Below, piece by piece: positions 10,949-37,311 of a stretch of 37,311 nt of DNA (positions within the stretch are counted from its first letter, which is position 1; every line of letters begins with the position of its first letter). Origin of the DNA: a virus; IMG/VR virus record IMGVR_UViG_3300046534_000660, positions 1-37,311 of that record; one strand, written 5' to 3'. A program made the position numbers and the translations under genes. The notes under the pieces are model-generated. The model had not been told where the DNA came from, did not search any database, and saw only the letters and a list, made by a program, of their open reading frames with translations.

Positions 10949-13900
10949 TGGCTAAGAATGATCAAAACGAAAGTGCATTGCCAGTACCGGGTCAAAATAA
11001 TAAAATAACTTCAAGTGACTTTTTACCTAAGTTTTTTAGAACACAAGCAAACAAAAAGTTTTTACAAGGCACACTTGATCAACTTATACAACCTGGTGTT
11101 GCTGAGAAGATAAATGGCTATTATGGTAGAACAACTGCAAAAGCTTATAAAACTTCAGACAACTATATAGATGACGTTACTACTGATAGAACTAATTACC
11201 AATTAGAGCCTGCTACAGTTATCAAAGACAACTATGATAATGTAACTTTTTACAAAGACTATAATGATTATATGGGACAACTTAATGTATTTGGCGCAAA
11301 CACAGATAATCACAGTCGTTTAAACAGCCAAGAAACTTATGCATGGAATCCAAATATTGATTGGGATAAGTTTGTAAACTTTCGTGAGTATTACTGGATG
11401 CCAAATGGCCCTATTAGTATTCCTATAAGAGGACAAAGCAGAGATATTGTTAGTACATATACTGTTACTACAGAAGATCAAGGCGATAATATTGCTTATG
11501 TGTTTAATGACGGACTAACACGTAACCCTAACTTAAAATTATACCGAGGTCAAACATATCGATTTGAAATTGACACACCTGGTCATCCAATGGCTATTGC
11601 TATTAGTAGAACATTTACTCCTGGTACCTCTATCTTAACAGCAGGTACAACAGGATTGCGAGCTAGTGGATTATTTGATGCAACACTTTATGGTAACGAA
11701 TATGATCAAGGTGAGTATATTGTTCTCCCAAGCGGCGGCAGTGTAACATTTGCAGCTGATGATAATGTTTCAACACTGTACCCAGATGGTATCCGTAAGT
11801 TAGGTGAAGAAGGCGAAGAAGTAGCAATTGCATATGTTGAAAAAGGAACAATTGAATTTACTATTCCTTTTAATGCTCCGGGTAGACTGTACTATATTAG
11901 TAAAAACGCAGTTGATACTAGTGGACAAATTAGAATTTTTGACATTGAAGAAAACTCTTTCCTTAATGTCGCTGAAGAAATACTAGGTAAGAAAACTTAC
12001 AAAAGTGCAAATGGTGTAGAATTATCCAACGGAATGAAAATTAAGTTCCAAGGCGATGTATTACCTGTCACGTATGACACTAATGATTGGTATGTAGAAG
12101 GTGTCGGCGATAAAATTAAATTAATTAAAGACCAAGATTTAATTATTCCAGCAGCATACAGTGATACTAAACTTGTAGCATTTGATAGTGACAACTTTGA
12201 TACACTACCATTTGGTGATGCAACAGCGTATGCAACTAACAAAGATTACATTGTTGTTAATAGAGCATCTCCAGATAGAAATGCATGGAGTCGATATAAT
12301 AGATGGCACCATAAAGATGTAATTTTACAAAGTTATAAATTTAATAATCTATCCAGAGATGTAGATGAATCTTCTCGTGCAAAACGTCCTATTATTGAAT
12401 TTGAAGCAGGACTAAAACTAAACAATTTTGGTGCAGTTGCTAAACAAGATGTTGATTTAATAGATACCTTTACTACAGATGCTTTTAGCACAATTGAAGG
12501 ACAACTTGGTTATAATATTGATGGTGTTAATCTTGCTGATAATATGCGTATTTTGTTTGCAGCAGACACTGATACATTAGTAAGCGGAAAAATATATCAA
12601 GTTAAATTTGTTAAAATTGGAAACAATAGACAAATAAGTTTAATTGAAACTACTGACACACTACCGATTGATCTTGAAACAGTGTTAATTACACAAGGTG
12701 TAAAAAATGCAGGTAAGAGTTACCACTACCATGATGCAAAATGGGTAACTGCACAAGAAAAAATAACACGTAACCAAGCACCTTTATTTGAAGTATGTGA
12801 TGTAAATGGTAATAGCTTTAGTGATATTACTTACTATGGATCTACTACGTTTAAAGGTACTAAGTTATTTTCGTATGCAGTAGGCGAAGGCAACGTAGAT
12901 ACTGAATTAGGATTTGCATTAGACTATAAGTCTATTAATAACTCAGGTGACATTGTATTCGATTTTAATTTGTTAAATGATACATTTGAATATCAAACTG
13001 AATCTGAATTGTTTACTCAAAAAACTAATAGTGGTTACTTAAAGAAATACACATCACTTACTAAATTTGCAAATGTAAATGGATTTAGTAGCACTCCAAC
13101 AATTAGTAAGCAATTTGTTATAAGAGAGTATGCAGCAACTACTATACAACCTAATAACTTTGTAATTGACGTTTATAATAAGTCAAGTAGTGTAACTGAT
13201 TTAAAAGTAGTTGTATTTGTAAATAATAAATTGCAATTAATTACTACTGATTATACAATTAATAAAACTGGTGATAATGCAGTTATTGTATTTGTAAAAG
13301 ATCTAGTAGATACTGATGTTGTTAAAATTAAAACAGACAGCAAGACTATTAAAAATTCTAAAGGTTATTATGAGTTTCCATATAACTTAGAACGCAATCC
13401 TCTAAACGATGATGTTAACCAATTTACACTTGGTGAAGTAATTGACCATGTTGATAGCATGCTTGAAGATATTCCAGGTTATACTGGTAGGTATCTTGGA
13501 CCAAGTAACTTACGTGACTTAGGTGATTTAGATCGTTATGGCAAACGTTTTGTCAAACATAGCGGACCAATTAACTTGCCTCTATACCACGTAACTAATA
13601 AAGATTATAATATTGTAAAAGCATTAAAGTTTGCTAAAAGAGAATATTCAAGGTTTAAGAAAGTTTTCTTAGACACTGCTGCTACATTAGGCTACGACGG
13701 TCCAACCAAAGGACACGTTGATCTTCTTCTAAAAACAGTTAATTGTGATAAACTAAAGTCGCAGCCTTTTTACTTCTCAGATATGCTTCCAACAGGTGCA
13801 TCTAATAAAATTGATTATACAGTACTAGATTCTAGAATAACAGAATATCCAATTACTGATAATTTTAACTTAACTACACTAAGTTCAACAAGTGTAATTG

Positions 13901-16900
13901 TGTACTTAAACAATGTACAACTAACACATATTAAAGATTATAATTTTAATATTCCTGGTTACGTTTCAATTAGCGCAGGACAGGTAGAAACCGACACAAT
14001 TAATATTCACGAGTATGAGAATACAGACGGTAGTTTTATTGCTCCTACTCCTAGTAAGCTAGGATTGTTTCCTAAGTATTATCCTGAGCTAACAATCGAC
14101 GATACTGTACTTGCAGCAGAGCCAGAAACAACAGGCCCGTTTAAGCTATATGGCGAAGATAGTGCAACTGGTACTAGAGGTTGGTTCTATCCTATGTATA
14201 CTACTAAGAGTGCAGCAGGCTCGGGAGCATTATCAAAGTCTTACACATTTACAGGAATGAATAAACTATTTTATATTCCAGTTGCTGCCGCAACTTTAGG
14301 CGGTAATGATGATATTGAAGTTACTGAATACCCAATTGGTGTTGCGTTTATTAGAGGTCACGACGGTAGCTATATTAAAGCGTACAAAGACTTTAGAGAT
14401 GAATTACTATTAGAATTAGAAAAGAGAATCTTTAATAATATTAAAGCAGAATACTCAACTGATAGACTAGACATTAATAAATTTATTGGCGGTGAGTTTA
14501 GAATTAATGAATTTACAAAAACTGAAATTGATAATACACTGCTTGGTGATTTTACGCAGTGGTTACAGCAAAACTTAAATAACCAGACGTATACAAACAA
14601 TACGTTTTACGATAGAACTAATAATTGGACATTTAGTTATGCACAAACTACTTCACCAGACGGTAATGTAAACCCGGGCTTCTGGAGAGGTATGTATGTT
14701 AGAGCATTTGATACTGATCGTCCGCATAGTCATCCTTGGGAGATGCTAGGATTAACAACTAAGCCTGCTTGGTGGAATACTGTTTACGGTCCTGCTCCAT
14801 ATACTGGAGATAACTTAGTTTTATGGAAAGACTTAGAAGAAGGCAGAATAGCAGATCCTAAAAATACTAGAATTGATTTAAACTATGTGCGTACTGGATT
14901 AACTAATTTTATTCCAGTTGATAGCTACGGTAAATTACTATCGCCACTAGATAGTAGATATGCTAAAGATTTCCAAATTGGAAATGCCACACAAAACTTT
15001 AAGTTTGGAGATCATGCTCCAATTGAAAATGCATGGCGCAAAAGTTCAGACTATCCGTTTGCTGTACTAACTGCAATGCTATTAAACAAGCCCGCAACAA
15101 CAATGGGCTTAGGGTTTGACGTTTCGAGAATTAAGAAAAACTTAGCAAAGCAGTGGGTAGATATAGATACAAATAAACCTATTGTAATTAAAGATTTAAA
15201 ATTACCTAATACATTTGAATCAACTGCACGGACTATGACATCAGGATTAGTAAATTATATTTACAATCTTGTAGCAAGTGATATTCTTACAGTTTACAAT
15301 GGATACAAAACTGAACTTGCAGGAATTAATAACCAACTTGGTATTAAAATTGCAGGATTTACAAGCAAAGAAAAGTTTAATTTAATACTTGATAGTAGAT
15401 CACCAACGCAGACTTCAGCACAGGATGGTATATTTGTTCCACAAGAAAACTACCAAGTATTCTTAAACACAAGTAGTCCTACTGAACTTGCAATCTTTAG
15501 TGGTATTATTATAGAACGTACTGAATTAGGTTATATTGTAAGAGGTTATAATTTAGAAAAACCTTACTTTGAATATTATCCACCACAAACTGGATCTAGT
15601 TTTTCAACTGTTACAGTTGGCGGCATAGCAGAAAAAGTACAGTCGTGGATTACTAATACAGCTTTCCTAAGCGGTGAAGTATTAGAACATAATAATGTAT
15701 ATTACAGAGTTATTACTTCCTTTACTAGTGGCGTAAATTTTGAGCTTGATGACGTTGTTAAATTACCATCATTACCAATTGACGGCGGTAGAACAGCACA
15801 GTTTAAGAAAGACTTTAATACTAATGAAATTAGTACAGTACAGTACGGAACACGTTTAACTACAGCACAAGATGTTGTTGACTTTATATTAGGATATAGT
15901 ATCCGACAATCAGAAATAGGATTTAGTTTTGATAATGTTATTAACGGATCTAATTCAGTTGAAAACTGGCCGCAGAGTGCTAAAGAGTTTTTATTCTGGA
16001 CAACACAAGGATGGGCTAATAACTCATTAATTGCAGTTAGTCCAGCTGCTAATTTATTAGAATTTAAAAGAGACTATCATATAGTTGATAATATTAAAGA
16101 TGAATTTTACGGTTACAGTATTCTTAAAGCTGACGGATTATTTTTAGATTCAGAGTTTAATAGTTTATTAAGAGACCAAAATAGCTTTGGTATTGAAACA
16201 GTAGGAACAGAAGAAGGACTATATCACGTAGCATTACCATTAGTACAAAAAGAGCATGTAGTATTAATTGATAATAAAACAGACTTTAATGATAATATCT
16301 ACAATCCAAGTACAGGTTATAGACAAGAAAGAATCCGTGTTAATGGTTATAGATCAGATAATTGGAATGGTGGATTAAACATTCCTGGATTTGTATATGA
16401 CGATGCAACATTTACTGATTGGAAACAATGGAAAGATTATAAGATTGGTGATATTGTAAAATATAAGCAGTTTTATTATGTAGCAACATCTAATGCGTCA
16501 GGCGAACAAAACTTTAATGCTTCATCGTGGCATAGATTAAACGAAAAGCCAGTGTCAGAGTTAATAACAAACTTTGATTACAGAATTACGCAGTTTACAG
16601 ATTTTTATGATTTAGATTCTGATAGCTTCGATATTGGGCAACAAAAAATGTCACAGCATTTGATAGGTTATCAAAAGCGTCAATATCTTGCTAATATTAT
16701 TAATGATGATGTAAGTCAGTTTAAATTCTATAGAGGTGCAATAGCAGACAAAGGCACAATGAATGTGTTTACTAAATTATTTGATGCACTTGGCAACACA
16801 ACTGATAACTTAGAGTTCTACGAAGAATGGGCAATACAAGTTGGACGTTTTGGCGCAACTGATGATGTTGAACAAGTTGAGTTTAACTTAAAGCAAGATG

Positions 16901-19900
16901 AAATACAAGAATCACCACAAGCAGTTGAACTTGTAGATACTATTCCTGAAACTAACTTTGATAAGATTTACAGAATTTTGCCAAATAATGTATATGATAA
17001 GCCTGCTGGTTATGCACATGCACCATTTCCAACCAAAACAATAACTAATGAATACATTAGGACTGCTGGTTATGCAAATGAAGATGATGTTGATTTTATT
17101 GTTGGAAACTTTATAGATCTTGCAGACGTTGATACTAATCAAATTAGACTAGGCGACACTATTTGGATAACCGATACTGATAGCAAGTCATGGACAATTC
17201 AACAGTTAGTACGAGCAAATGTAAATGCACTAGATTTAAATGCACTTATTACTGCTGTTTCAGACAATGGATTGAATATTGTTGAAATAACTCTTGATAA
17301 ATGGGTAGATGGTTTATTTGCAGTTGGCAATTATATTGGTATCCGTGGAGCAGAGCAATTTTCAGTTAACGGGTTGTATGAAATTGATAGTATTAATTTA
17401 AACACTGTACGTATAAGAGTTCCTGTAGGTAATGAAATAACAAACTTTGAAGAAGAAAAGTTTGCAATATCTATGTTAAGAACTATAAGAGTTGACACAG
17501 TTGCAGGAGTTAATGCAGCAACAAATCAAGATATTTATAGCAAACAAAAATTATGGATTGACAAATATAACAACGAATGGGCTGTATTAGAAAACACTCC
17601 TGTTTATTTAAATTCGCAAGCAGTTACAAATCCAACAGAATACGATAGTACTGATCAAGGATTTAGTGATAGTGTAGCAGTAACAAAGAATAACAACAAC
17701 GTCTTTGTATCTTCTGCAAATGACGGGGATGGCAAAGTACATGTTTATAGGAGAACTAGAGAACAGTCAGAGTTATTACTAGATCAAGAACTTACTATAG
17801 AAACTGATGATTTATTTACTAGATCAGATAGTGACTTTGGAAAAAGTATTGCAGTATCGCCAGATGGCGAATATCTTATTGTAGGTATTCCGCAAGCAAC
17901 TTCTGTTAAAACACAATTAGCTTATAAAACAGATGCAGCTACTAGTTTAAGCACATTTGATTTCCAACCAGATGCAACATATGTTAAAAGTGACATAGTG
18001 CGTTACAGAGAAAGTCTATGGAAAGCAAATAGAGAAGTGCTTCCGGAAATTGCTAATCAGCCATTTAGTACTTTTGATACGTATGTTAATTTAGCAAGTG
18101 TAGCAGATGCTGATAGTACAACATTAAATCTTTTAGTTGCAGGTGATCCGGGATTAGCAACTAACACAACAAGTCACTTGTTAGTGCGAGCGCCAAAAGA
18201 TATGTATATCGGAACAACAGCCGGCGACACAATTAACTTATTTTGGAACCAGCGTAGTTTTACATTCCCAACATTAGATAACTATATTCCGTTTGAAGGG
18301 CTTATTCCAGAAATTACTGGAGCATTTTTAAGTCAAGATCATACTATTGTTGAAAAAATTGATCATGTAATGTTTGTTGAAACTTTTGTATCATTGCCAA
18401 CAGTAGGCAGTACTGTAACAACTGACACTGGTAGTGCCGAAGTAGCATATGTAGGATCTCGCAGAGACAGTGCAGTTGTTTACCTTAAAAACACAAATGG
18501 TGTCTTTCCTATTACAGGTGAAATGTTTATTAATGAATTAGACTTTGTAGGATTTTATTCAGAAGCAGACACATATGCTACAAGTACAGCAATAGGCGGC
18601 TTCTGGATGATTAATACAGGATTTACTTATTCAAACAACAGTGTGTATTATGAACAAGGTCGAGGCTTAGTGTATGCTGATGTTAAACTACAAGGCTCAG
18701 TAAGAGCTATTAATAACTATTATAATATTCAAAACACAGTTGGCACAATTGGTACATATGTTACTAACAAAAATAATGTAAGCTATATTGAACAATTGTC
18801 ATATCGAGGTGATCCGTCAGGTGCTGATGCACAAGACGGTGTTGAGAGAGATCTTCCAAGTAATAAATTTATAGTTAGAGTAGGAAAATTATTTAGTGAT
18901 TATGTAGCGCAAGGTGAAGAACAGCAATTCCGTTTATACAATCTTGACAACAGAATTATTGATGTTGCAAGTGCAGGATTTACATATGATATTTTAAACA
19001 AATCACAAACTATTGTTGATCTATGGGACGGCTATATTGACTTTACATTAACAGAATTTGACTTTCAAGGATTTGCATTTGAGCCACAAATTGGAGATGT
19101 AATTGAAGATATTCAAATTCCAAAAGATGGTCAGGGCGGTTTAGCACTAACAACTATTAGCACAAGTACTGCTGAAGTTACATTTATAAAACGTAATTTT
19201 AACTCTGTAAGAGTTTACTTAAAAGTACTAACAGGTCCTTGGGTAGAACAATCCAACATAGGACGCTTCCAGCTCCGCAGAAAAGCAAATGTTGGTTTAC
19301 GTGGAGTAGGCGATGCTGATCGTGCAATTGGTACTATAACTAATGTTAATAATAGCATAGTATTGGGAACATCAGAAGTTGGTAAGTTCTTAGTATTTGA
19401 ACATTCTAGTAACTTTGACATTGTTGCTACTCCAAGAATTATTGATGAAGAATATTGGTTCTTTGATGAAACTACTGAGCAAGGTGTTGCCAGATTGTCT
19501 AATCCTCCGTACAGCTTAAACAAAGACTACACTCAAATTTATAATATACCTGCTGTAAAAACAGGAACAACTCCAACATTAGCAAATGAAGGTGCTGTTG
19601 CAATATATCGCAGATTGCCAGATGGTACATATAGAATACAACACACACTTATATCAGAATACAGGGCAGCAAACAGAAACTTTGGCTCTCAAGTTGCAAT
19701 AGTACAAACTAATAATCGTTATACAATGTTAGTTGCTAGTGACAGTATTGTTAGTGCTAACGAAACCGATAGCACAGGTAGAAGAGTACACCCTGGATCA
19801 ATTGAAGTGTTCCGTCATGGTACAACTGCATCTGATAGTTTCCAAGGCGATTATCAAATAAGAGCATACGCACTTGATGATATTGTAGTATTCAAAGATG

Positions 19901-22900
19901 ATTATTATATTTGTCGTAAAGCAACAACAGCTTCGCAAAATGTTATTGTTGATCCAATTTACTGGGACAAAGTTAGCTGGCAGCATGGTAAAGATGCAAA
20001 CTATCGTGGCACATTTGATAATACGTATTCTTATGCAAAAGGAAATATTGTTGTACAAAGCAATGCGTTATGGAAAGCAGCAACTAACATATCAGTAAGT
20101 GCAGCTATACCAAGTGCATCAAACAATTCTTGGACAAGCATTACTACAGATGTTGATTACTTAGGATACTTGCCAAACTTAACTGCAAACGCATTTTATA
20201 ATGAATCAGTATTTGATCCTATTGAAAACATATTAGAGTTCAGTAAGAGTTTTGATATTAGTGACGATGCACAAGTTTTAGTTGTAACAAGTTTACAGCA
20301 GACTAGAACAGACAGTACAACAAACACAAAAATTGCAATTTATCGTGCAGTTGGTGAAAAATTCCAATTGGATCAAACAATCAATGCCCCTGATAATGTT
20401 ACAGGTTGGGCAGATAAAGTTTCATTAAATCCTGCAGGAACACAACTTGCTATAAGTTCAATGTTAAATGATACTGGGAAAGCTAATCAAGGCGTTGTTT
20501 ATGTGTATACACAATCTGCAGGAACATTTAGTTTAACACAAACACTTACTCCTCCAAACAATGAAGAAAGTGAAGGCTTTGGCTTTGGACTATCATACGG
20601 CGCAGATAACTTAGTAGTGTCTAGCTTAAATGGTGATCAAACAATTCCAACAACGTTTGATGTTACATTGTTTGCAGATACTGAAGATACTGCAACTACC
20701 TTTGATTTTGAATTTACAAACTTTAGAAATATTAAACTTGACAAAGGTTCAGTATACGTTTACGAAAATATTAATAGTAACTTAATATATTCAGAGCAAT
20801 TTATATATCCACTAACACAAACTACGTTTGGCGAAAACATTTATACTAACGGTAACCATGTGTATGTAGGACTTCCAGATCAGCTTGCTGGTGAAACAGA
20901 TAGTTTACCGGGCAACAAAGGCCAATTACTTGACTTTAGAAAAAATGCAACTACATTTGGATGGAGTGTAATTAACGAAGGTGTTACACCAGTAGACGTA
21001 GATAACATTAGGGGTATGTTCTTATACAACAAGCGTGAAAACCGTATTGTAAGTTATATCGATTATATTGATCCAGTACAAGGTAAGATTGCTGGACCAG
21101 CTGACCAAGAAATTACATTTAAAACTCCATCAGATCCAGCAGTATATAATACAGGTAACAGTGCAGACAGCAATGTTGATGCTAATAGAGCATGGTGTGA
21201 AACGCATGTTGGCCAAGTATGGTGGAATATTAGTACTGCTAAATTTACACATGCATATCAAGGCTCAACAACGTTCCAAAAAACTAATTGGAATAAACTT
21301 ACTCCGGATGCAAGAATTGACGTATTTGAATGGGTAGAAAGTAATGTTATTCCGAGTATTTGGGATAGTGTTGCTGACACACCTAATGGTACACCGGCTG
21401 GCATTAGCGGAACAAGCTTATTTGGTGACACTAGATATTCAACAAAAATAAATTATAATGAAACCAGTAAAACATTTAGCAACACATATTACTTTTGGGT
21501 AGTTAATAAAGTTACTGTTCCTGTAGTAGAAAACAGAAAATTAAGCATTATTGATATTGCAGCACTTATTGAAAGTCCAAGAACACAAGGTTATCCGTTT
21601 ATAAGCTTACTTTCAAATAGTAAGTTTATACTTAACAACTTTGATTCATTTGTTAACAGCGATGATTTAGTGTTGAATATTAAATATTCAACTGGTGCTA
21701 AGAAAACACAGAACGTACACAGTCAGTACAAACTAATATCAGATGGATTAGATGTAAGTAAGCCTGATCCAGATATTGAACGTAAATGGTTTGATAGTTT
21801 AATTGGGTTTGACAGCAATAATAGAATTGTTCCAGACCCGACTATATCTGTTAAAAATCGTTATGGTGTACAAAATCGTCCAAGACAAAGTATGTTTGTT
21901 AATAGATTTGAAGCACTAAAACAAACCATTGAAAGAATAAATTTAAAGTTAGCTGAAAATCTTGTAGTTGACGAATACGATATTACAAAATTGTCAACTA
22001 AAGATATTGCTCCTAGTTTAATTTCAAAGCAGTATGATTTAAAAATTGATACACTAGCAGATCTTACATATGTAAGTACAAATAAAATTACTCCTGCTGT
22101 GCTAACACCTATTATTACTAACGGCAGAATATCAAGAATTAATATTACTGATGCAGGCAGAGGTTATAAAGTAGCACCTAGTTTTACTATAAACGGCGAA
22201 GGTGCAAATGCTGAATTTTCTACTACTATTAATGCTTTAGGACAAATTGAATCAATTACAATTACTAGTGCAGGTGCCGGGTATGACCAAACTACTACTA
22301 TCACAGTTAGACCGTTTACTGTATTAGTTGTTGCAGACGAAAATGTTCAAAACAAATGGGCATTATACTCATGGAGTGGAACTGCTTGGTATAGAAGAAA
22401 ACTACAAAGTTATAATGTAGACGTTTATTGGGATTATGTTGATTGGTATGCTCCTGGCTACAATCAGTTTTCAAATATTAACGACACAATTAAAGGTTCA
22501 TATCAGTTGCCAAGCTTAGATAACACTATTGGTAACATTGTAAAGATTGAAAACGTTGGATCAGGCGGTTGGTTATTACTACATAAAATTGACGATCAGG
22601 ATACTGAAGATTATACAATTAACTATAATACTATTGGTAGACAGAATGGCACAGTTCAATTTAAAGATACGTTGTACGACTATGGTAAAAACACTGTAGG
22701 CTTTGATAACCGTAGCTTCGACAGTAATTTTTATGATAATAATCCTAGTGTTGAATTGAGAATTATACTTGAAGCTATTAGGGATAATATTTTTGTAGGC
22801 AAGTTAGAAGTTGAATACAATCAGTTGTTTATGGCTGCATTACGATATGTAATGACAGAACAACAGTCAGTGGATTGGATGTTTAAAACTAGTTTTGTAA

Positions 22901-25900
22901 AAGCAAAGCACAATAGAGAAACATTAAACATACAAGACATAACATTTAATAATGATAATTTAGCAAGTTACCAAGAGTTTGTTGAAGAATTTAAACCTTA
23001 TTCAACAAAAATAAGAGAATTTGTTAGTGAATACAATGCAATTGATCCTACAAATAGTAGTATTAGTGACTTTGATTTATCTCCAGCATATAATACTCTT
23101 ACTAACACAATTGACCCAAGTACTGCAACTATTGTTGATGGCGTAATTAACACTGAAAACTTAGATACTGCAAAATATCCTAGAAAAAATTGGAAAGATA
23201 ACTTAGGTTTTCAAATTACTGAAGTTAAACTAGGTAGTGGCGGCACTGGATTTACATTTGAACCTACTGTTAAATTAATAGGTGGCGGCGGCACTGGCGC
23301 AACAGCAAAAGCATACTTAGGATATGGTAAAATTACTAAGATTAAAGTTACTAATCCAGGAACTGGGTACACTAGTTCTCCAACAGTTGTTATATCAGGC
23401 TCACAATTAGAGACTGGAACTGTAGCAACTGCTACTGCGGTATTAGGCAATGGAGTTGTAAGAAGTCCAAGCGTTAAAATTAAGTTCGACAGAAACAGCG
23501 GCAAGTTTACATTTAGCACATTAGCTAAGTCTGAAACATTTGCAGGAACAGGGTTCGAAACAAGATTCTTCCTAGCATGGCCGATGGACCGGGCTATGAA
23601 AAAAGTTAGCGTATATGTAGATAGTGTATTACAGTTACGTAGCAAGTATACTTTTACTAACATTGTAAATTTTGATAAAACATATACTAGGGAGCAAGGA
23701 AAAGTTATATTTGCAACTCCTCCTAAAGTAAATGCAGTTATAAGAGTAGACTATAATATTCCATTAAGTATGTTAGGAGCAGAAGATAGAGTTAATCTTG
23801 CATACAATCCAATTGCAGGAATGTACGGTAAAGACTTAGCACAGCTAATGACAGGTATTGATTACGGTGGAGTTGAAATACGTAGCTTTGATTTTGCAGG
23901 TCCTGCAGGATTTGACACAGACGGCTGGTATACAGATGCATGGGACGAATTTGATAGCACATTTGAAGATGAAATCTTTACATTAGATGGATCAACAATA
24001 GCACTTCCATTATTAACTCCATTAGAGAATGGTGTTGTATATAATGTTTATTATAAGGACACTGGAGTTAATGCAAATCCAGTAAGAATTGACGCAGGCG
24101 ACTATATAGCAGGCACTCCAGGAAGCTCTGCAACAAATGCTAATGCAACTATGTTGAGTATTACTGGTGACGGAACAACTAATATTATATATACAGATGA
24201 CTTTAATCTAACAGCAAAAACAATGTCCGATGGTGATACAATCATTATTAGAAAAGCAACTAGCGATGGCGCAGCAACTCCTGATACTAACAGTTACGAT
24301 ACTGCACTTAGTGGCGGAGATCTAGCGTATGCAACTGCTAAGGGTCTTGCAGCAGAAGAAATTATTGTAGACGGTGACGGATTTGTTACTCCTACTACTT
24401 CAAGCGGTCCTGAAGAATTGGTTCCAGGACAAGTACTTGACACATTAGATATTAAAGTATTTACGAGAGATAGTGCAGGCCAAGGTGTTATTAACAGTCA
24501 AAGCTATATTATGGATAGCACATTAACTTATAACCTAGGTGTTACCCCAAATAGTAGTAACGCAGTTATTGTAAAAGTTGCTAATGTTATATTACCACAA
24601 ACTGATTATACAATTAATTGGGCTGCAAACACTGTAACACTTAATACAGCAACAGTAGGAGCAGAGCTTAGTATTGTAGCAGTTGCACAAGGTACACAAA
24701 ATATACTAGACTTTGGAAAGTTAACAGGTGACGGTTCAACAGTTCAATTTGAAACTACTGTTGATTGGGAATCTGGTGCAACTGTATATGCAAGTATTAA
24801 CGGCATACAAAAAACAGTAGTAGCATTTAAGTCTGAAACAACTCCTAAGACAGCTATTAGGTTTGACGAAGTAGTTGCTTTAGATGCAGTAGTTAATTAT
24901 ACTGTGTTTGCAGCTGATGCACAAATTAATTATAGTCAAATTACTAAAGATACGTTTACTGGTGACGCAGCAACAACAGCATTTACTTTAGCAAATGCTC
25001 CGTTATACGCTGCACCGACTGAACATAATGTAATTGTTAAAGTAGATAATACTATTTTAAGTGCAGGATACAATATACAGTATATAATTCCTGAAAATAG
25101 CCAAAGAGAATTTCCATTAGAAATATTCCAAATGCCAGCAGGTAGTTTAGCTGTTGCAGATCTTAGGATATTCTTAAACGGTCTTCCAATTACAACTCCG
25201 CTATTTTGGCGCTTTGAAGCTACAAACAGTGCTATTACACTAACAGACGAAGTAGGAGCACCAGGCGACCTACTAGAAATGTATGTGATTACAGATGGCG
25301 ATTATAGATTAGATGGATCTACAATAACATTAGATACCGCACCAGATGCAGGAGCAGTAATTGAAGTAATTCAGTTTACTAACCACAACTTGCTAGGTCT
25401 TGAGCGTATGACTTATGATGTAGTTAACAGATCTACGCTACTTGAAACACAGGTTGATTATGTTACATACAATAGATTAACTGTTGGCGAAATTACTTTA
25501 CGTAAACCTGCAATTGATGCACAATATGTATGGATAAGTGTAAACGGTGAGCTATTAACACCTAGTGTAGACTATTCTGTAACTGACGACAGGCTAAAAG
25601 TTCAATTAGTAAGAACACCAGCAGCTAATGATATTATAGAAGTTATTCACTTTACTTCTGCAGCAAGCACAGCTAAATTTGCATATAGACAGTTCAAAGA
25701 TATGTTAAATAGGACACATTTTAAGCGTCTTGATACAGCAGCTACTAAACTAGCACAACCATTAAATTATTATGATTTAAGAATTGAATTAGATGATGGC
25801 ACTGAATTAGCAGAACCAAACAAACAGCAAAACTTACCTGGCGTAATTTTTATTAATGGCGAGCGTATTGAGTATTTTGTAAAAGAAGTTAATACCTTAC

Positions 25901-26373
25901 GCCAGTTACGTAGAGGCACATTAGGTACTGGAGTTAAGACAACTTACCCAGTTAGTACTAAAGTTTTTGATCAGAACATAAGTAAAACTGTTCCGTATAA
26001 AGATAAAACTCTAGCGTATAACGCTACAGCAGACGGTGTTACAAGTGTGTTCACAGTTGGGTATACAGTTACATCAATCAACGAGATTGAAGTGTTTGTA
26101 GGCGGTACACGTATGCGTAAGACAGCATTAGATGTGTTTAACCCTGTAACAGCGTTAGATAGCCCAGAGGGTGATACTAGTGTTGTAGCAGACTTTACAT
26201 TTGATGTAGATACTAATGCAATTACATTACTTGCTACACCAATAGAGAATGCAAAAGTATCAGTAATGAAAAAAGTAGGTCAAAGTTGGACTTCAAGTGG
26301 CACAACTTTGGGCAATACAGAAAATGGCATCGCAAGATTCTTACGTGCCGGAACATCTGAGCTACCTGAATAA
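10948..26373 (+). CDS. Giant modular baseplate/virion structural protein in the gp7 position (5141 aa)
   Basis: One uninterrupted frame starts at a TAATG overlap with gp6. The N-terminal 150 residues (FLPKFFRTQANKKFLQGTLD; DWDKFVNFREYYWMPNGP) belong to a family of very large virion proteins of marine T4-like phages. A segment near 1927-1950 (FYRGAIADKGTMNVFTKLFD) resembles the KG-containing stretch late in T4 gp7. Other parts are: about 170-333, cupredoxin-like without copper ligands; about 1822-1864, 2337-2367 and 2967-3066, small CBM5/12-like modules; about 2237-3300, seven FG-GAP-like propeller blades with long insertions; 3725-3788 and 4088-4172, G-x-G-Y beta repeats; about 4190-5130, at least seven fibre-like repeats. 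The end has INGERIEYF and LRQLRRGTLGTG motifs common in this family. I infer a wedge component with outward, receptor-facing domains. T4 gp7 is near 1030 aa. Confidence 0.82.
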   Translation: MAKNDQNESALPVPGQNNKITSSDFLPKFFRTQANKKFLQGTLDQLIQPGVAEKINGYYGRTTAKAYKTSDNYIDDVTTDRTNYQLEPATVIKDNYDNVTFYKDYNDYMGQLNVFGANTDNHSRLNSQETYAWNPNIDWDKFVNFREYYWMPNGPISIPIRGQSRDIVSTYTVTTEDQGDNIAYVFNDGLTRNPNLKLYRGQTYRFEIDTPGHPMAIAISRTFTPGTSILTAGTTGLRASGLFDATLYGNEYDQGEYIVLPSGGSVTFAADDNVSTLYPDGIRKLGEEGEEVAIAYVEKGTIEFTIPFNAPGRLYYISKNAVDTSGQIRIFDIEENSFLNVAEEILGKKTYKSANGVELSNGMKIKFQGDVLPVTYDTNDWYVEGVGDKIKLIKDQDLIIPAAYSDTKLVAFDSDNFDTLPFGDATAYATNKDYIVVNRASPDRNAWSRYNRWHHKDVILQSYKFNNLSRDVDESSRAKRPIIEFEAGLKLNNFGAVAKQDVDLIDTFTTDAFSTIEGQLGYNIDGVNLADNMRILFAADTDTLVSGKIYQVKFVKIGNNRQISLIETTDTLPIDLETVLITQGVKNAGKSYHYHDAKWVTAQEKITRNQAPLFEVCDVNGNSFSDITYYGSTTFKGTKLFSYAVGEGNVDTELGFALDYKSINNSGDIVFDFNLLNDTFEYQTESELFTQKTNSGYLKKYTSLTKFANVNGFSSTPTISKQFVIREYAATTIQPNNFVIDVYNKSSSVTDLKVVVFVNNKLQLITTDYTINKTGDNAVIVFVKDLVDTDVVKIKTDSKTIKNSKGYYEFPYNLERNPLNDDVNQFTLGEVIDHVDSMLEDIPGYTGRYLGPSNLRDLGDLDRYGKRFVKHSGPINLPLYHVTNKDYNIVKALKFAKREYSRFKKVFLDTAATLGYDGPTKGHVDLLLKTVNCDKLKSQPFYFSDMLPTGASNKIDYTVLDSRITEYPITDNFNLTTLSSTSVIVYLNNVQLTHIKDYNFNIPGYVSISAGQVETDTINIHEYENTDGSFIAPTPSKLGLFPKYYPELTIDDTVLAAEPETTGPFKLYGEDSATGTRGWFYPMYTTKSAAGSGALSKSYTFTGMNKLFYIPVAAATLGGNDDIEVTEYPIGVAFIRGHDGSYIKAYKDFRDELLLELEKRIFNNIKAEYSTDRLDINKFIGGEFRINEFTKTEIDNTLLGDFTQWLQQNLNNQTYTNNTFYDRTNNWTFSYAQTTSPDGNVNPGFWRGMYVRAFDTDRPHSHPWEMLGLTTKPAWWNTVYGPAPYTGDNLVLWKDLEEGRIADPKNTRIDLNYVRTGLTNFIPVDSYGKLLSPLDSRYAKDFQIGNATQNFKFGDHAPIENAWRKSSDYPFAVLTAMLLNKPATTMGLGFDVSRIKKNLAKQWVDIDTNKPIVIKDLKLPNTFESTARTMTSGLVNYIYNLVASDILTVYNGYKTELAGINNQLGIKIAGFTSKEKFNLILDSRSPTQTSAQDGIFVPQENYQVFLNTSSPTELAIFSGIIIERTELGYIVRGYNLEKPYFEYYPPQTGSSFSTVTVGGIAEKVQSWITNTAFLSGEVLEHNNVYYRVITSFTSGVNFELDDVVKLPSLPIDGGRTAQFKKDFNTNEISTVQYGTRLTTAQDVVDFILGYSIRQSEIGFSFDNVINGSNSVENWPQSAKEFLFWTTQGWANNSLIAVSPAANLLEFKRDYHIVDNIKDEFYGYSILKADGLFLDSEFNSLLRDQNSFGIETVGTEEGLYHVALPLVQKEHVVLIDNKTDFNDNIYNPSTGYRQERIRVNGYRSDNWNGGLNIPGFVYDDATFTDWKQWKDYKIGDIVKYKQFYYVATSNASGEQNFNASSWHRLNEKPVSELITNFDYRITQFTDFYDLDSDSFDIGQQKMSQHLIGYQKRQYLANIINDDVSQFKFYRGAIADKGTMNVFTKLFDALGNTTDNLEFYEEWAIQVGRFGATDDVEQVEFNLKQDEIQESPQAVELVDTIPETNFDKIYRILPNNVYDKPAGYAHAPFPTKTITNEYIRTAGYANEDDVDFIVGNFIDLADVDTNQIRLGDTIWITDTDSKSWTIQQLVRANVNALDLNALITAVSDNGLNIVEITLDKWVDGLFAVGNYIGIRGAEQFSVNGLYEIDSINLNTVRIRVPVGNEITNFEEEKFAISMLRTIRVDTVAGVNAATNQDIYSKQKLWIDKYNNEWAVLENTPVYLNSQAVTNPTEYDSTDQGFSDSVAVTKNNNNVFVSSANDGDGKVHVYRRTREQSELLLDQELTIETDDLFTRSDSDFGKSIAVSPDGEYLIVGIPQATSVKTQLAYKTDAATSLSTFDFQPDATYVKSDIVRYRESLWKANREVLPEIANQPFSTFDTYVNLASVADADSTTLNLLVAGDPGLATNTTSHLLVRAPKDMYIGTTAGDTINLFWNQRSFTFPTLDNYIPFEGLIPEITGAFLSQDHTIVEKIDHVMFVETFVSLPTVGSTVTTDTGSAEVAYVGSRRDSAVVYLKNTNGVFPITGEMFINELDFVGFYSEADTYATSTAIGGFWMINTGFTYSNNSVYYEQGRGLVYADVKLQGSVRAINNYYNIQNTVGTIGTYVTNKNNVSYIEQLSYRGDPSGADAQDGVERDLPSNKFIVRVGKLFSDYVAQGEEQQFRLYNLDNRIIDVASAGFTYDILNKSQTIVDLWDGYIDFTLTEFDFQGFAFEPQIGDVIEDIQIPKDGQGGLALTTISTSTAEVTFIKRNFNSVRVYLKVLTGPWVEQSNIGRFQLRRKANVGLRGVGDADRAIGTITNVNNSIVLGTSEVGKFLVFEHSSNFDIVATPRIIDEEYWFFDETTEQGVARLSNPPYSLNKDYTQIYNIPAVKTGTTPTLANEGAVAIYRRLPDGTYRIQHTLISEYRAANRNFGSQVAIVQTNNRYTMLVASDSIVSANETDSTGRRVHPGSIEVFRHGTTASDSFQGDYQIRAYALDDIVVFKDDYYICRKATTASQNVIVDPIYWDKVSWQHGKDANYRGTFDNTYSYAKGNIVVQSNALWKAATNISVSAAIPSASNNSWTSITTDVDYLGYLPNLTANAFYNESVFDPIENILEFSKSFDISDDAQVLVVTSLQQTRTDSTTNTKIAIYRAVGEKFQLDQTINAPDNVTGWADKVSLNPAGTQLAISSMLNDTGKANQGVVYVYTQSAGTFSLTQTLTPPNNEESEGFGFGLSYGADNLVVSSLNGDQTIPTTFDVTLFADTEDTATTFDFEFTNFRNIKLDKGSVYVYENINSNLIYSEQFIYPLTQTTFGENIYTNGNHVYVGLPDQLAGETDSLPGNKGQLLDFRKNATTFGWSVINEGVTPVDVDNIRGMFLYNKRENRIVSYIDYIDPVQGKIAGPADQEITFKTPSDPAVYNTGNSADSNVDANRAWCETHVGQVWWNISTAKFTHAYQGSTTFQKTNWNKLTPDARIDVFEWVESNVIPSIWDSVADTPNGTPAGISGTSLFGDTRYSTKINYNETSKTFSNTYYFWVVNKVTVPVVENRKLSIIDIAALIESPRTQGYPFISLLSNSKFILNNFDSFVNSDDLVLNIKYSTGAKKTQNVHSQYKLISDGLDVSKPDPDIERKWFDSLIGFDSNNRIVPDPTISVKNRYGVQNRPRQSMFVNRFEALKQTIERINLKLAENLVVDEYDITKLSTKDIAPSLISKQYDLKIDTLADLTYVSTNKITPAVLTPIITNGRISRINITDAGRGYKVAPSFTINGEGANAEFSTTINALGQIESITITSAGAGYDQTTTITVRPFTVLVVADENVQNKWALYSWSGTAWYRRKLQSYNVDVYWDYVDWYAPGYNQFSNINDTIKGSYQLPSLDNTIGNIVKIENVGSGGWLLLHKIDDQDTEDYTINYNTIGRQNGTVQFKDTLYDYGKNTVGFDNRSFDSNFYDNNPSVELRIILEAIRDNIFVGKLEVEYNQLFMAALRYVMTEQQSVDWMFKTSFVKAKHNRETLNIQDITFNNDNLASYQEFVEEFKPYSTKIREFVSEYNAIDPTNSSISDFDLSPAYNTLTNTIDPSTATIVDGVINTENLDTAKYPRKNWKDNLGFQITEVKLGSGGTGFTFEPTVKLIGGGGTGATAKAYLGYGKITKIKVTNPGTGYTSSPTVVISGSQLETGTVATATAVLGNGVVRSPSVKIKFDRNSGKFTFSTLAKSETFAGTGFETRFFLAWPMDRAMKKVSVYVDSVLQLRSKYTFTNIVNFDKTYTREQGKVIFATPPKVNAVIRVDYNIPLSMLGAEDRVNLAYNPIAGMYGKDLAQLMTGIDYGGVEIRSFDFAGPAGFDTDGWYTDAWDEFDSTFEDEIFTLDGSTIALPLLTPLENGVVYNVYYKDTGVNANPVRIDAGDYIAGTPGSSATNANATMLSITGDGTTNIIYTDDFNLTAKTMSDGDTIIIRKATSDGAATPDTNSYDTALSGGDLAYATAKGLAAEEIIVDGDGFVTPTTSSGPEELVPGQVLDTLDIKVFTRDSAGQGVINSQSYIMDSTLTYNLGVTPNSSNAVIVKVANVILPQTDYTINWAANTVTLNTATVGAELSIVAVAQGTQNILDFGKLTGDGSTVQFETTVDWESGATVYASINGIQKTVVAFKSETTPKTAIRFDEVVALDAVVNYTVFAADAQINYSQITKDTFTGDAATTAFTLANAPLYAAPTEHNVIVKVDNTILSAGYNIQYIIPENSQREFPLEIFQMPAGSLAVADLRIFLNGLPITTPLFWRFEATNSAITLTDEVGAPGDLLEMYVITDGDYRLDGSTITLDTAPDAGAVIEVIQFTNHNLLGLERMTYDVVNRSTLLETQVDYVTYNRLTVGEITLRKPAIDAQYVWISVNGELLTPSVDYSVTDDRLKVQLVRTPAANDIIEVIHFTSAASTAKFAYRQFKDMLNRTHFKRLDTAATKLAQPLNYYDLRIELDDGTELAEPNKQQNLPGVIFINGERIEYFVKEVNTLRQLRRGTLGTGVKTTYPVSTKVFDQNISKTVPYKDKTLAYNATADGVTSVFTVGYTVTSINEIEVFVGGTRMRKTALDVFNPVTALDSPEGDTSVVADFTFDVDTNAITLLATPIENAKVSVMKKVGQSWTSSGTTLGNTENGIARFLRAGTSELPE

Positions 26374-26395: not shown

Positions 26396-26998
26396 ATGAG
26401 CGATAACATGCAAGATACAAACGGAGTACTAGTTCAGGGACATATTAAGATATTTGACCCTGAATCACAAAAGGTATACATTGACAAGCGCAATGCAATT
26501 CATTATGAAAATATGAGTCTTGCACTTGCTGAAAGTTTGTCTAATGCAGGCGAAGGATTTATATACGATATGAGCTTTGGAAACGGCGGTACAAGCGTTG
26601 ATCCAACAGGTATTATTACGTATCTAACACCTAATAGCACAGGAACAAACGCAAGTCTATACAATCAGACCTATACTAAGATTGTTGATGATAGAAGCGT
26701 AAACAATACTGATCCTGCAAGAAACAAGCTAGAAACTAGGCATGTTAGCGGAACAAACTATACTGATATTGTAGTAAGCTGTTTACTTGATTACGGCGAG
26801 CCTAACGGACAAGATGCATTTGATACTGCAAGCGCAACTGACAGTCCTTATGTGTTTGACGAATTAGGTCTACGTAGTTATAGTGCTGCTGGTACTGGCA
26901 GACTAATCACACATGTTATTTTCCACCCAGTACAAAAGTCACTTAACAGATTAATCCAAATTGATTACACAGTGCGTGTACAAAGTTTGGCAGGGTAA
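26396..26998 (+). CDS. Conserved virion structural protein, probably baseplate-associated (200 aa)
   Basis: I do not recognise a T4 counterpart with certainty. The sequence (GHIKIFDPESQKVYIDKRNA; FIYDMSFGNGGTSVD; LITHVIFHPVQKSLNRLIQI) has the look of a small all-beta structural protein family in marine T4-like phages, found beside fibre genes. It may be a baseplate-to-fibre adaptor in the place of gp8 or gp9; that is inference from position. AGGA lies 9 bases before the ATG, and a second in-frame ATG occurs four codons on. Ten bases separate it from the first fibre gene. Confidence 0.65.
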   Translation: MSDNMQDTNGVLVQGHIKIFDPESQKVYIDKRNAIHYENMSLALAESLSNAGEGFIYDMSFGNGGTSVDPTGIITYLTPNSTGTNASLYNQTYTKIVDDRSVNNTDPARNKLETRHVSGTNYTDIVVSCLLDYGEPNGQDAFDTASATDSPYVFDELGLRSYSAAGTGRLITHVIFHPVQKSLNRLIQIDYTVRVQSLAG

Positions 26999-34478: not shown

Positions 34479-34507
34479 TTGACAAAGCCTTAATTTTAAT
34501 ATATACT
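34479..34507 (+). promoter_or_regulatory. Host-type sigma70 promoter (TTGACA - 17 - TATACT)
   Basis: TTGACA at 34479-34484 is a perfect -35 box. TATACT at 34502-34507 matches five of six bases of the -10 consensus, with a 17-base spacer. It stands about 30 bases before the ATG at 34537, which has AGGAG at 34525-34529. No ATAAATA box is present in this gap. The match is strong by eye; activity is untested. Confidence 0.72.
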
Positions 34508-34536: not shown

Positions 34537-34887
34537 ATGGATGAGCGTTTAGAGAAAGCACTAGACTTTTCTAATTACATGCTAACACTCAACAATCAAA
34601 AACGATTGTTAGCAGAAAAATATCAAGAATCATTAATACACTTTTATAGCGGATCACAGTTTACAATTACCCGTGAATTAATTACGTTTGTAAGTACAAT
34701 GGTACATGCAGAACAAGATGAAATTATTATTACTGATGATAACGGTATTCCGTGTATGGTAGAAGACTTGAGTGTCTTTTACGGACACATTATGGATATT
34801 TATACTACATCATCTAATGATTATCATACCCAATACTTAAAACTTAAACAGAGCAGAAGCGTAGAGAAACTTGTCAATTATGAGTAA
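34537..34887 (+). CDS. Small conserved hypothetical protein (116 aa)
   Basis: I do not recognise a function. The protein is acidic and probably mixed alpha/beta. An N-terminal helix-forming stretch (LEKALDFSNYMLTLNNQKRL) is followed by EKYQESLIHFYSGSQFTITR and EIIITDDNGIPC. No signal peptide or membrane segment is seen. It has a strong Shine-Dalgarno, AGGAG 7 bases before the ATG, and a sigma70-like promoter directly upstream. It overlaps the next gene by 8 bases, heading a four-gene operon. A regulatory or accessory role is possible but unsupported. Confidence 0.7.
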   Translation: MDERLEKALDFSNYMLTLNNQKRLLAEKYQESLIHFYSGSQFTITRELITFVSTMVHAEQDEIIITDDNGIPCMVEDLSVFYGHIMDIYTTSSNDYHTQYLKLKQSRSVEKLVNYE

Positions 34888-35731
34888 AGGCGTATTTTTA
34901 ATTGCTCGAAACAACGGTGAAATCGACTATGCAAAACAAGCAGTATTCCTTGCCAGACGAATAAAAAAGTATCTAGGTGTACCTGTAACTTTAGCTACGG
35001 ATAGTGAAGAGTACATAACATCAGATTATGGCACAGATGACTTTGATAATATTATTACATTACCGTATGTTGATGATAGAAATATGCGATATTTCTTTGA
35101 CGGTTCTTTAACTAAAAAAACAGCAAGTTTTAAAAATAGTAATAGAGCAAATGTATACCGGCTTTCGCCGTATGATGAAACATTGTTAATGGATACTGAT
35201 TACATTATATCAAATGATTTATTAAAAGGATGCTTTGGATCTAAATCAGACTTTATGATATACAACACATCAGACGATATTGCAAAAGTGCGTAATGAAG
35301 CAGAGTTTGATACTATTAGTAATGCTAGTGTTGACTTTTATTGGGCAACTGTTGTATACTTTAAAAAGACAGAAACTAACCGTGTATTTTTTGACTTAGT
35401 TAAGCATATTGAAGACGAGTGGAATCATTATAGGCGTGTGTACCAAATAACTTCTAGTTTGTTTAGGAATGACTTTGCTTTTAGTATTGCAATTCATATG
35501 ATGAATGGATTTCAAACAGGAACTTTTGCACAGCAATTACCAGGTAGTATGTTATACACTACAGATAAAGATATTCTGTGGCAATTAAATGAAGATGAAA
35601 TGATGTTTTTAGTAGAAAAAAACGGATACCTTGGCGAATTTACTGCATTGAAAACAACAGGACAGAATATACACGTAATGAATAAAATTAGTCTTGATAG
35701 AATAATTGATCGGGAGTTTGCAAATGACTAA
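34880..35731 (+). CDS. Glycosyltransferase-like protein, first of two paralogues (283 aa)
   Basis: The N-terminus (KGVFLIARNN; QAVFLARRIKKYLGVPVTLA) fits a Rossmann-like start of a nucleotide-sugar transferase. SPYDETLLMDTDY places a DxD motif at D105-D107, the usual metal and sugar-nucleotide site of GT-A enzymes. The next gene is a clear paralogue (SPYDETIVMDTD). Donor and acceptor cannot be told. I chose the ATG at 34880, not the upstream TTG at 34871, because it aligns with the paralogue's MTKG start and overlaps the upstream stop by 8 bases. That junction suggests translational coupling, since no good ribosome site precedes it. A GT fold is likely; activity is not shown. Confidence 0.68.
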   Translation: MSKGVFLIARNNGEIDYAKQAVFLARRIKKYLGVPVTLATDSEEYITSDYGTDDFDNIITLPYVDDRNMRYFFDGSLTKKTASFKNSNRANVYRLSPYDETLLMDTDYIISNDLLKGCFGSKSDFMIYNTSDDIAKVRNEAEFDTISNASVDFYWATVVYFKKTETNRVFFDLVKHIEDEWNHYRRVYQITSSLFRNDFAFSIAIHMMNGFQTGTFAQQLPGSMLYTTDKDILWQLNEDEMMFLVEKNGYLGEFTALKTTGQNIHVMNKISLDRIIDREFAND

Positions 35732-36566
35732 AGGAATTGTAGTTCTTGCACAAAACAATGAAACTGATAATTATGTAGAGCAAGCTGCTTTATTAGCAAT
35801 GAGCTTGCACACGTACAACAATGCAAAAATTAGTTTAATTACTAATGACGAAGTGCCACAAGAATACATACGTCTTTTTGATAAAATTATTCCTATTCCG
35901 TTTGGCGACAGTGCTAAAGATAGTGCGTGGAAAATAGAAAACCGTTGGAAGATTTATCATGCTAGTCCGTATGATGAAACAATTGTAATGGACACTGATA
36001 TGCTAGTGTTACAAAACATTGATGTATGGTGGAATTTTCTTTCTAATTACGAAATGTTTTTTACTAATAAAGTATTAACATATAGAGGCACAGTTGCTGA
36101 CACTAGTTATTACAGAAAAACGTTTATAGCAAACAATCTTCCTAATTTATTTGTAGGATTACACTACTTTAAGAAGTGTGATTTTGCACAAGAGTTTTAT
36201 ACTTGGTTAGAATTAGTAGTTAACAACTGGGAAACATTCTACGAACAACATTTAGAGGGCGCCACTCGTCCTAAGCATGTAAGTATTGATGTATGTTCAG
36301 CAATTGTAGTAAAGCTATTAGATTGTGAAACATCTGTAACAAACAAAGTTTCTAAATTTCCAAGCTTTACTCATATGAAACCATATTGCCAAGGCTGGAA
36401 CGAAGTACAATCTAGCTGGCAAAATCAAGTAGGTGTTTATATTTCAAAAGACGGCAGTATAAAAGTTGGAAACTATGCACAGACTGGAATATTGCATTAT
36501 ACAGAAACAGATTTTATAGAAAAATCGCCAGCACTAGAAAGATACGGGAATTTAATAAATGTCTGA
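35724..36566 (+). CDS. Glycosyltransferase-like protein, second of two paralogues (280 aa)
   Basis: This is a paralogue of the preceding gene. KGIVVLAQNNETDNYVEQAA and the SPYDETIVMDTDM motif (DxD at D90-D92) align with the first copy. The layout, a sugar-nucleotide-binding N-half and a DxD followed by a hydrophobic strand, fits GT-A glycosyltransferases. The C-half differs, with several cysteines and an NWETFYEQHLEGATRPKHVS stretch, so the acceptor may differ. GGGAG at 35712-35716 lies 7 bases before the ATG. A TTG at 35706 is an alternative start but less likely. It overlaps its neighbours by 8 bases on both sides. Confidence 0.68.
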   Translation: MTKGIVVLAQNNETDNYVEQAALLAMSLHTYNNAKISLITNDEVPQEYIRLFDKIIPIPFGDSAKDSAWKIENRWKIYHASPYDETIVMDTDMLVLQNIDVWWNFLSNYEMFFTNKVLTYRGTVADTSYYRKTFIANNLPNLFVGLHYFKKCDFAQEFYTWLELVVNNWETFYEQHLEGATRPKHVSIDVCSAIVVKLLDCETSVTNKVSKFPSFTHMKPYCQGWNEVQSSWQNQVGVYISKDGSIKVGNYAQTGILHYTETDFIEKSPALERYGNLINV

Positions 36567-37311
36567 TTTACAAGACTTACTTAAAAAAATTAAAGCTGGA
36601 CCAGTTAGTACACAGTCGTATGTATACTACAACAAAGAAGATGGCAAAATACATAAAATTAGCTCAACTAATGTTTTACAAGAAGGGCTTGAAATTTTTG
36701 AAATTGATAATGAAGAAGTTAAGCCTATTCTTTCTGGACAACGTCGAACTGAAGAGTTTACTATAACATACGATATAAGTTCTAAACAAATAAGATTAAA
36801 AGAAGTATCGTATGATGACAATCAAAAAACAGCAGATACAATGACGTATCAGTTGCCTGTTATTAAGAATACATTTGACGGTCATTTTTCAGTAACAAGT
36901 GTATTTGAAGGAATTGACATATGTATCTGGGATATTACAAAAAGTTATATTGAAGGTGAGTTCGTTTGGCATAATGAAATAGTTTACAAACTTAAAACTA
37001 ATATTGAGCTAGGCACAGAATTTGATACTACTGCGCATAACATATTAGAAGATGATGTAATGTTAACAAACTTGCCAACACAAAGCCATAGTGCAACAAA
37101 AATAGTTATGAAACCTGAGTATGAGGGTGTTCATGTTGATGTATGGTATAAAGCCTTAGAGCATCAAGCAGGTCAACATGTATGGCTAAATGGCAATGTT
37201 TATAAAATATTAGAATACGCAGAAGCAGACACTGAATTTACAATGAAAAATGTAGAAGTTATTATTGGCGATGTAAATTTATATGCTGACGAAAATAAAT
37301 TATTAAAAACT
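36559..37311 (+). CDS. Unknown protein with repeated carbohydrate-binding-like motif (3' truncated by window)
   Basis: The frame is open from the ATG to the window edge, 251 codons without a stop, and overlaps the previous stop by 8 bases (ATGTCTGA). The start reads MSDLQDLLKKIKAGPVSTQS. Two segments resemble the small W..Y..G..V.....VYK modules found in the giant baseplate protein: WDITKSYIEGEFVWHNEIVY at about 124-143, and a second at about 194-217 with QHVWLNGNVYKI. They recall chitin-binding-like CBM5/12 modules, but the fit is loose. It may be a structural or glycan-binding protein acting with the glycosyltransferase-like pair; that is inference. The C-terminus is outside the window. Confidence 0.6.
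   Translation, partial: MSDLQDLLKKIKAGPVSTQSYVYYNKEDGKIHKISSTNVLQEGLEIFEIDNEEVKPILSGQRRTEEFTITYDISSKQIRLKEVSYDDNQKTADTMTYQLPVIKNTFDGHFSVTSVFEGIDICIWDITKSYIEGEFVWHNEIVYKLKTNIELGTEFDTTAHNILEDDVMLTNLPTQSHSATKIVMKPEYEGVHVDVWYKALEHQAGQHVWLNGNVYKILEYAEADTEFTMKNVEVIIGDVNLYADENKLLKT

Follow-up and report, generated by a model that had tools for sequence, protein, structure and literature searches.

Paired putative GT-A glycosyltransferase genes at the head of a variable, fibre-adjacent island in uncultured large myophages

Pelagimyophages carry GT8 enzymes and radical-SAM cassettes beside their tail fibre genes, in a variable island (~35-45 kb) which has been read as a means of O-chain modification against coinfection (PMC7029224). 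The borders of this host recognition cluster are the VrlC and neck gp14 genes. Moraphages, which are aquatic jumbo phages, possess four core glycosyltransferase orthogroups (PMC12619734). The locus described here lies at the end of a 37,311-nucleotide stretch of viral DNA (the window), which, judged from the sequences of its relatives, is part of the genome of an uncultured large myophage. The gp6-like (baseplate wedge) protein of the window is nearest to those of Agrobacterium phage Atu_ph07, Sinorhizobium phage Phosso and SCTP-2 (35-37% identity). Related virus records are up to 261,806 bases long. The lineage comprises hundreds of environmental contigs; no cultured member was found. A single ORF of 5141 codons (10948-26373) separates the gp6-like gene from the fibre genes; in relatives the corresponding proteins measure 3765 to 5294 aa.

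Organization and inheritance of the locus

The features of the locus are listed in Table 1. Two tandem glycosyltransferase-like genes, here GT1 and GT2, are located where the original prediction had put them (34880-36566), and the 116-aa protein and the last gene of the window, which it had grouped with them, are also real. GT1 starts with ATG 34880, a TTG nine bases upstream being a possible alternative, and GT2 with ATG 35724. Overlaps of 8 nt connect the 116-aa gene with GT1, GT1 with GT2, and GT2 with the fourth gene. As the window ends inside the fourth gene, the wider context is visible in relatives only; there the block consists of five genes, encoding the 116-aa protein, GT1, GT2, the CBM-like fourth protein and a 308-aa GT-like protein.

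Table 1. Coordinates of the block and its promoter-like sequence in the window
Feature	Position	Strand	Basis
116-aa protein, first gene of the block	34537..34887	+	ORF list; fold unassigned; adjoins the GT1/GT2 pair in relatives
GT1, predicted GT-A glycosyltransferase, 283 aa, DxD at residues 105-107	34880..35731	+	Predicted model, Foldseek, DxD 90/90
GT2, predicted GT8-like GT-A glycosyltransferase, 280 aa, DxD at residues 90-92	35724..36566	+	Predicted model, glycogenin profile match, Foldseek, DxD at least 90/93
Fourth protein, N-terminal part only, two CBM5/12-like repeats	36559..37311	+	ORF reaches the window end
Sigma70-type promoter-like TTGACA-17-TATACT before the five-gene block	34479..34507	+	11/12; aligned in relatives

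Loci fetched through GT1 or GT2, some of which share a contig, contained both genes in the same order in 121 of 122 cases, the remaining one being cut by a contig end. A further sample was picked through a conserved tail protein (26396-26998), which avoids selecting on the glycosyltransferases. Of its 44 loci with at least 9.5 kb downstream, 37 showed the pair, 5 showed it further on, and 2 were cut by contig ends. The pair is universal in its lineage, with GT1 and GT2 in the same order in 42/42 testable tail-anchored loci. Median identity of GT1 and GT2 to the window is 46% (41 tail-anchored loci), compared with 31-54% for the neighbouring fibre genes, which the block directly follows. The grouping of the pair with the 116-aa and CBM-like genes holds across relatives: in a contig binned with an alphaproteobacterial MAG, at a GT identity of ~34%, the 116-aa gene, GT1, GT2, a short fourth gene and the 308-aa gene are ordered alike. 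Contigs assigned by binning to a Neomarinimicrobiota MAG also carry the block, at 64% identity, binning being weak host evidence. Two contigs of one Neomarinimicrobiota MAG, PBPT01000016.1 (335,231 b) and PBPT01000082.1 (153,204 b), both contain the tail and GT block of the lineage, so that phage sequence seems to have been binned in it. None of 50,697 named phage records searched by tblastn matched GT1, GT2 or the 308-aa protein. In a tree of 88 proteins, GT1 and GT2 were reciprocally monophyletic and parted by a branch with 100/100 support, which places their duplication before the sampled lineage.

The block is followed by an island of 24-39 kb in seven long relatives (G001, G003, G004, G005, G006, G023 and G024). 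Its genes encode many radical-SAM/SPASM proteins, UDP-glucose/GDP-mannose dehydrogenase, NAD-dependent epimerase, 2OG-Fe(II) oxygenases, together with an Asp/Asn-hydroxylase-like protein and one that matches GDSL weakly. When one record is set against another, just 2-18 of the 29-44 island genes have a one-to-one counterpart, at 20 to 86% identity; the 116-aa protein, GT1, GT2 and the 308-aa protein are present in every island record compared, at 40-80% identity. In G005 and G023, certain island genes are 86% alike and GT1 48%, which indicates that the island genes are exchanged and the block is vertically inherited. The block heads this mosaic island and sits between the tail genes and the variable modification genes. 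In G005 (41398-79614), as in the six other relatives, the island is rich in radical-SAM/SPASM proteins and contains oxygenases and a TauD-like protein. Many island proteins are without any Pfam or PHROG match.

The 3' end of the sigma70-type sequence lies 29 nt before the 116-aa gene, at a position conserved among relatives. A match of at least 11/12 was found in 56 of 86 distinct upstream regions of the block but in none of the 603 regions that precede nine other genes; in shuffled controls 10/12 was reached in 3.5%. Elsewhere in relatives, sequences of this type precede non-virion genes (5'-3' exonuclease, GTP cyclohydrolase I and AAA ATPase). The tail genes nearby share CGATAAATAATA or TTTAAATAAATA boxes instead. 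These are conserved upstream of tail genes 31016 and 33490 and resemble T4 late promoters in what may be a diverged form; the window shows no enrichment of the exact T4 late box TATAAATA. Given its own sigma70-type promoter next to tail genes with late-like boxes, the block looks like the head of a transcription unit belonging to the island, and not like the end of the tail operon. Its original placement in a tail region is to be corrected accordingly: the block has its own promoter and opens a separate variable modification island. Across the lineage, the conserved promoter lies where the late-type tail genes give way to the modification island.

Predicted fold, family and active sites

Searches with the single window proteins against Pfam, PHROGs and the PDB gave nothing usable except a weak phrog_1903 match, and profiles were therefore required. 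GT1 and GT2 are phage-specific families without a Pfam match. AlphaFold models were made from alignments of 44 GT1 and 42 GT2 orthologues and reached a mean pLDDT of 91.9 for GT1 and 94.4 for GT2. The top Foldseek matches in the PDB were GT-A enzymes without exception. For GT1 they included GT24, GT6 and GT8 members (UGGT, blood-group transferases, glycogenin) as well as LARGE1, and for GT2 glycogenin along with further GT8 enzymes; the whole-chain TM-scores were modest (about 0.3-0.5). By sequence, too, the GT2 profile matches glycogenin (GT8; E 2e-6), in an alignment that brings the DxD regions into register. The GT1 profile had no significant sequence match to solved glycosyltransferases in the PDB (best E 0.27), and sequence places GT2 alone firmly in GT8. 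Both proteins are acidic, with no membrane segment and no basic tail. According to their models and profiles, GT1 and GT2 are predicted to be soluble, DxD-dependent GT-A glycosyltransferases related to GT8.

The motif that the original prediction had seen in both genes, with its DxD, reads SPYDETLLMDTD in GT1 and SPYDETIVMDTD in GT2. Paralogy with similar N-termini is likewise evident, at 33% identity across 117 N-terminal residues (BLASTP, E 4e-17). The description of the C-halves as diverged is correct at the level of BLASTP; a profile-profile comparison carries the relationship to 188 columns (probability 99.4). The DxD aspartates are conserved in all of 90 distinct GT1 sequences and in at least 90 of 93 distinct GT2 sequences. 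In the models a strand is predicted directly before the DxD (E100-104 before D105 in GT1, E85-89 before D90 in GT2). A C-terminal H..K signature is invariant, H265-V-M-N-K269 in GT1 and H217-M-K219 in GT2, with H265, N268 and K269 as the invariant GT1 residues near the C-terminus. It may correspond to the C-terminal His of GT8 enzymes, a metal ligand with a Lys after it; these enzymes are retaining transferases that use UDP-sugars. Values of dN/dS between close relatives are ~0.05-0.16, as expected under purifying selection. With GT-A folds, a conserved DxD and low dN/dS, both proteins are very probably active GT8-like enzymes. The GT-A fold with an active site around the DxD, on which the original prediction had staked its assignment, is thus found in the AlphaFold models, the Foldseek matches and the DxD conservation. 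Pseudogenes or drift are rejected in view of dN/dS and the invariant sites.

For the 116-aa, fourth and 308-aa proteins, profile searches of the PDB returned nothing convincing. The 308-aa protein carries a DGD/DAD motif, on which its label as GT-like is tentatively based. The fourth protein is about 446 aa long in the nearest relatives and has a weak CBM_5_12 match (19.8 bits versus a cut-off of 26.2); in distant relatives it is without the two CBM5/12-like repeats. In the alignment of the fourth protein the N- and C-terminal parts are kept, and the CBM5/12-like middle (100-250 aa) occurs in some relatives and is missing from others.

Possible functions of the pair

As the two genes are paired, have their own promoter and lie between tail genes and a swappable block, they probably provide a fixed sugar for a phage tail protein or the host surface. 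We favour, with slightly less than even confidence, a phage-encoded acceptor on which GT1 and GT2 would lay a constant short glycan, most likely a tail fibre protein encoded just upstream (fibre genes lie at 31016, 32504 and 33490), or else the CBM-like fourth protein. GT1 and GT2 stem from the duplication that preceded the sampled lineage and have remained together ever since; from their obligatory pairing we infer that they act in sequence to produce this glycan. That the pair is universal and vertical argues for a constant acceptor, a phage protein rather than the host O-chain, and the predicted solubility agrees. Strain-specific decorations would be supplied or elaborated by the exchangeable island through its sugar-nucleotide dehydrogenase, its epimerase and its further GT-like, radical-SAM and oxygenase proteins, and the outcome would be a tuned host recognition or a shielded fibre. 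Glycosylation of the fibre is consistent with the GT-A fold and GT8 relation, the invariant DxD and H..K residues, purifying selection, strict pairing, the position of the block right after the fibre genes with its order kept at ~34%, and the acidic character of proteins without a membrane segment. It is at variance with the sigma70-type promoter, which is of the early kind whereas the fibre genes have late-like boxes, and with the modest TM-scores and the lack of significant similarity of GT1 to any solved glycosyltransferase; furthermore, the sugar-nucleotide enzymes of the island equally suit envelope modification. An acceptor site was not found. Should a fibre protein be the acceptor, the lineage would be able to alter host recognition post-translationally, in a way that the fibre sequence does not predict. 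An extended form, in which all five genes are a dedicated fibre-glycosylation machine whose constant pair primes and whose exchangeable island writes variable decorations, appears unlikely; if true, chemistry and not fibre sequence alone would make host-range variation.

The promoter fits better with the modification of the host envelope (O-chain, capsule or LPS core) at an early stage of infection, by which receptors would be masked and superinfection blocked, since promoters of its kind also precede non-virion genes in relatives. The pair heads an island with sugar-nucleotide dehydrogenase, epimerase and more GT-like genes, and a remote GT2 relative of Synechococcus phage ACG-2014f is found inside a cluster of sugar-epimerase, glycosyltransferase and sulfotransferase genes. 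LgtC-type GT8 enzymes have a basic or hydrophobic membrane-binding tail, but GT1 and GT2 do not. An enzyme for host glycans would also be expected to be exchanged along with host range, in the manner of the island genes, but the pair is universal and descends vertically. Envelope modification has been proposed for the GT8 genes of the pelagimyophage host recognition clusters (PMC7029224), and we regard it here as a close, if somewhat less likely, alternative. If the host envelope is the acceptor, the pair would be a universal receptor-masking step.

The obligatory pairing and the translational overlap would also be accounted for if GT2 were the sole enzyme and GT1 its acceptor-binding partner or chaperone-like paralogue in an obligatory heteromer. 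The C-terminal half of GT1 is unlike that of GT2, and its missing match to solved glycosyltransferases points the same way, but the DxD of GT1, conserved throughout, and its invariant H265, N268 and K269 make such a role improbable. Phage glycosyltransferases often act on DNA; the T4 alpha- and beta-glucosyltransferases are GT-B enzymes. Glycosylation of modified phage DNA bases in the T4 fashion, an action on DNA having been raised for moraphages (PMC12619734), is highly improbable here, as the GT1 and GT2 models are GT-A, the block adjoins tail genes and a radical-SAM island, and the annotated neighbours included no recognisable base-hydroxymethylation gene.

Comparison with known systems

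Of the GT8 enzymes (glycogenin; LgtC and WaaO type), glycogenin is matched by the GT2 profile in sequence and fold, and the DxD and the C-terminal H..K motif would fit this family; GT1 falls outside by sequence, whole-chain TM-scores are only about 0.4-0.5, and the C-terminal halves are different. The GT1 and GT2 profiles had no match in HTVC008M (a pelagiphage), P-SSM2, S-SSM7, RaK2, Atu_ph07 or SCTP-2. Among the named phages tested, only ACG-2014f has GT2 relatives, the remote phrog_1903 proteins gp028 and gp231 (GT2 profile E 4e-9 and 7e-5). One of them is encoded directly after the tail fibre genes and the other in the glycan gene cluster; a tandem GT1-GT2 pair and a homologue of the 116-aa protein are absent. 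The 116-aa gene product gp023, which follows the tail genes of ACG-2014f, is unrelated to the 116-aa protein of the window. Phage Atu_ph07, which has the nearest named baseplate wedge protein (37%), is without a GT1 or GT2 homologue. Behind the gene for its giant virion protein come three radical-SAM genes and one of cupin/JmjC type (L125:16909-23647), in the same relative place as the island. The likeness to moraphages, as aquatic jumbo phages with core glycosyltransferases, is drawn from the published description.

The locus had originally been proposed as a candidate for an undescribed system. This does not stand, as the kind, GT8 enzymes and radical-SAM cassettes beside fibres, has already been reported in pelagimyophages (PMC7029224). 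The island is of the same kind as the pelagimyophage cluster in another lineage: both are variable, fibre-adjacent and contain glycosyltransferases and radical-SAM cassettes. What sets the present island apart is its fixed, promoter-led head of five genes, in which a constant, vertically inherited glycosyltransferase pair can now be told apart from the swappable genes behind it.
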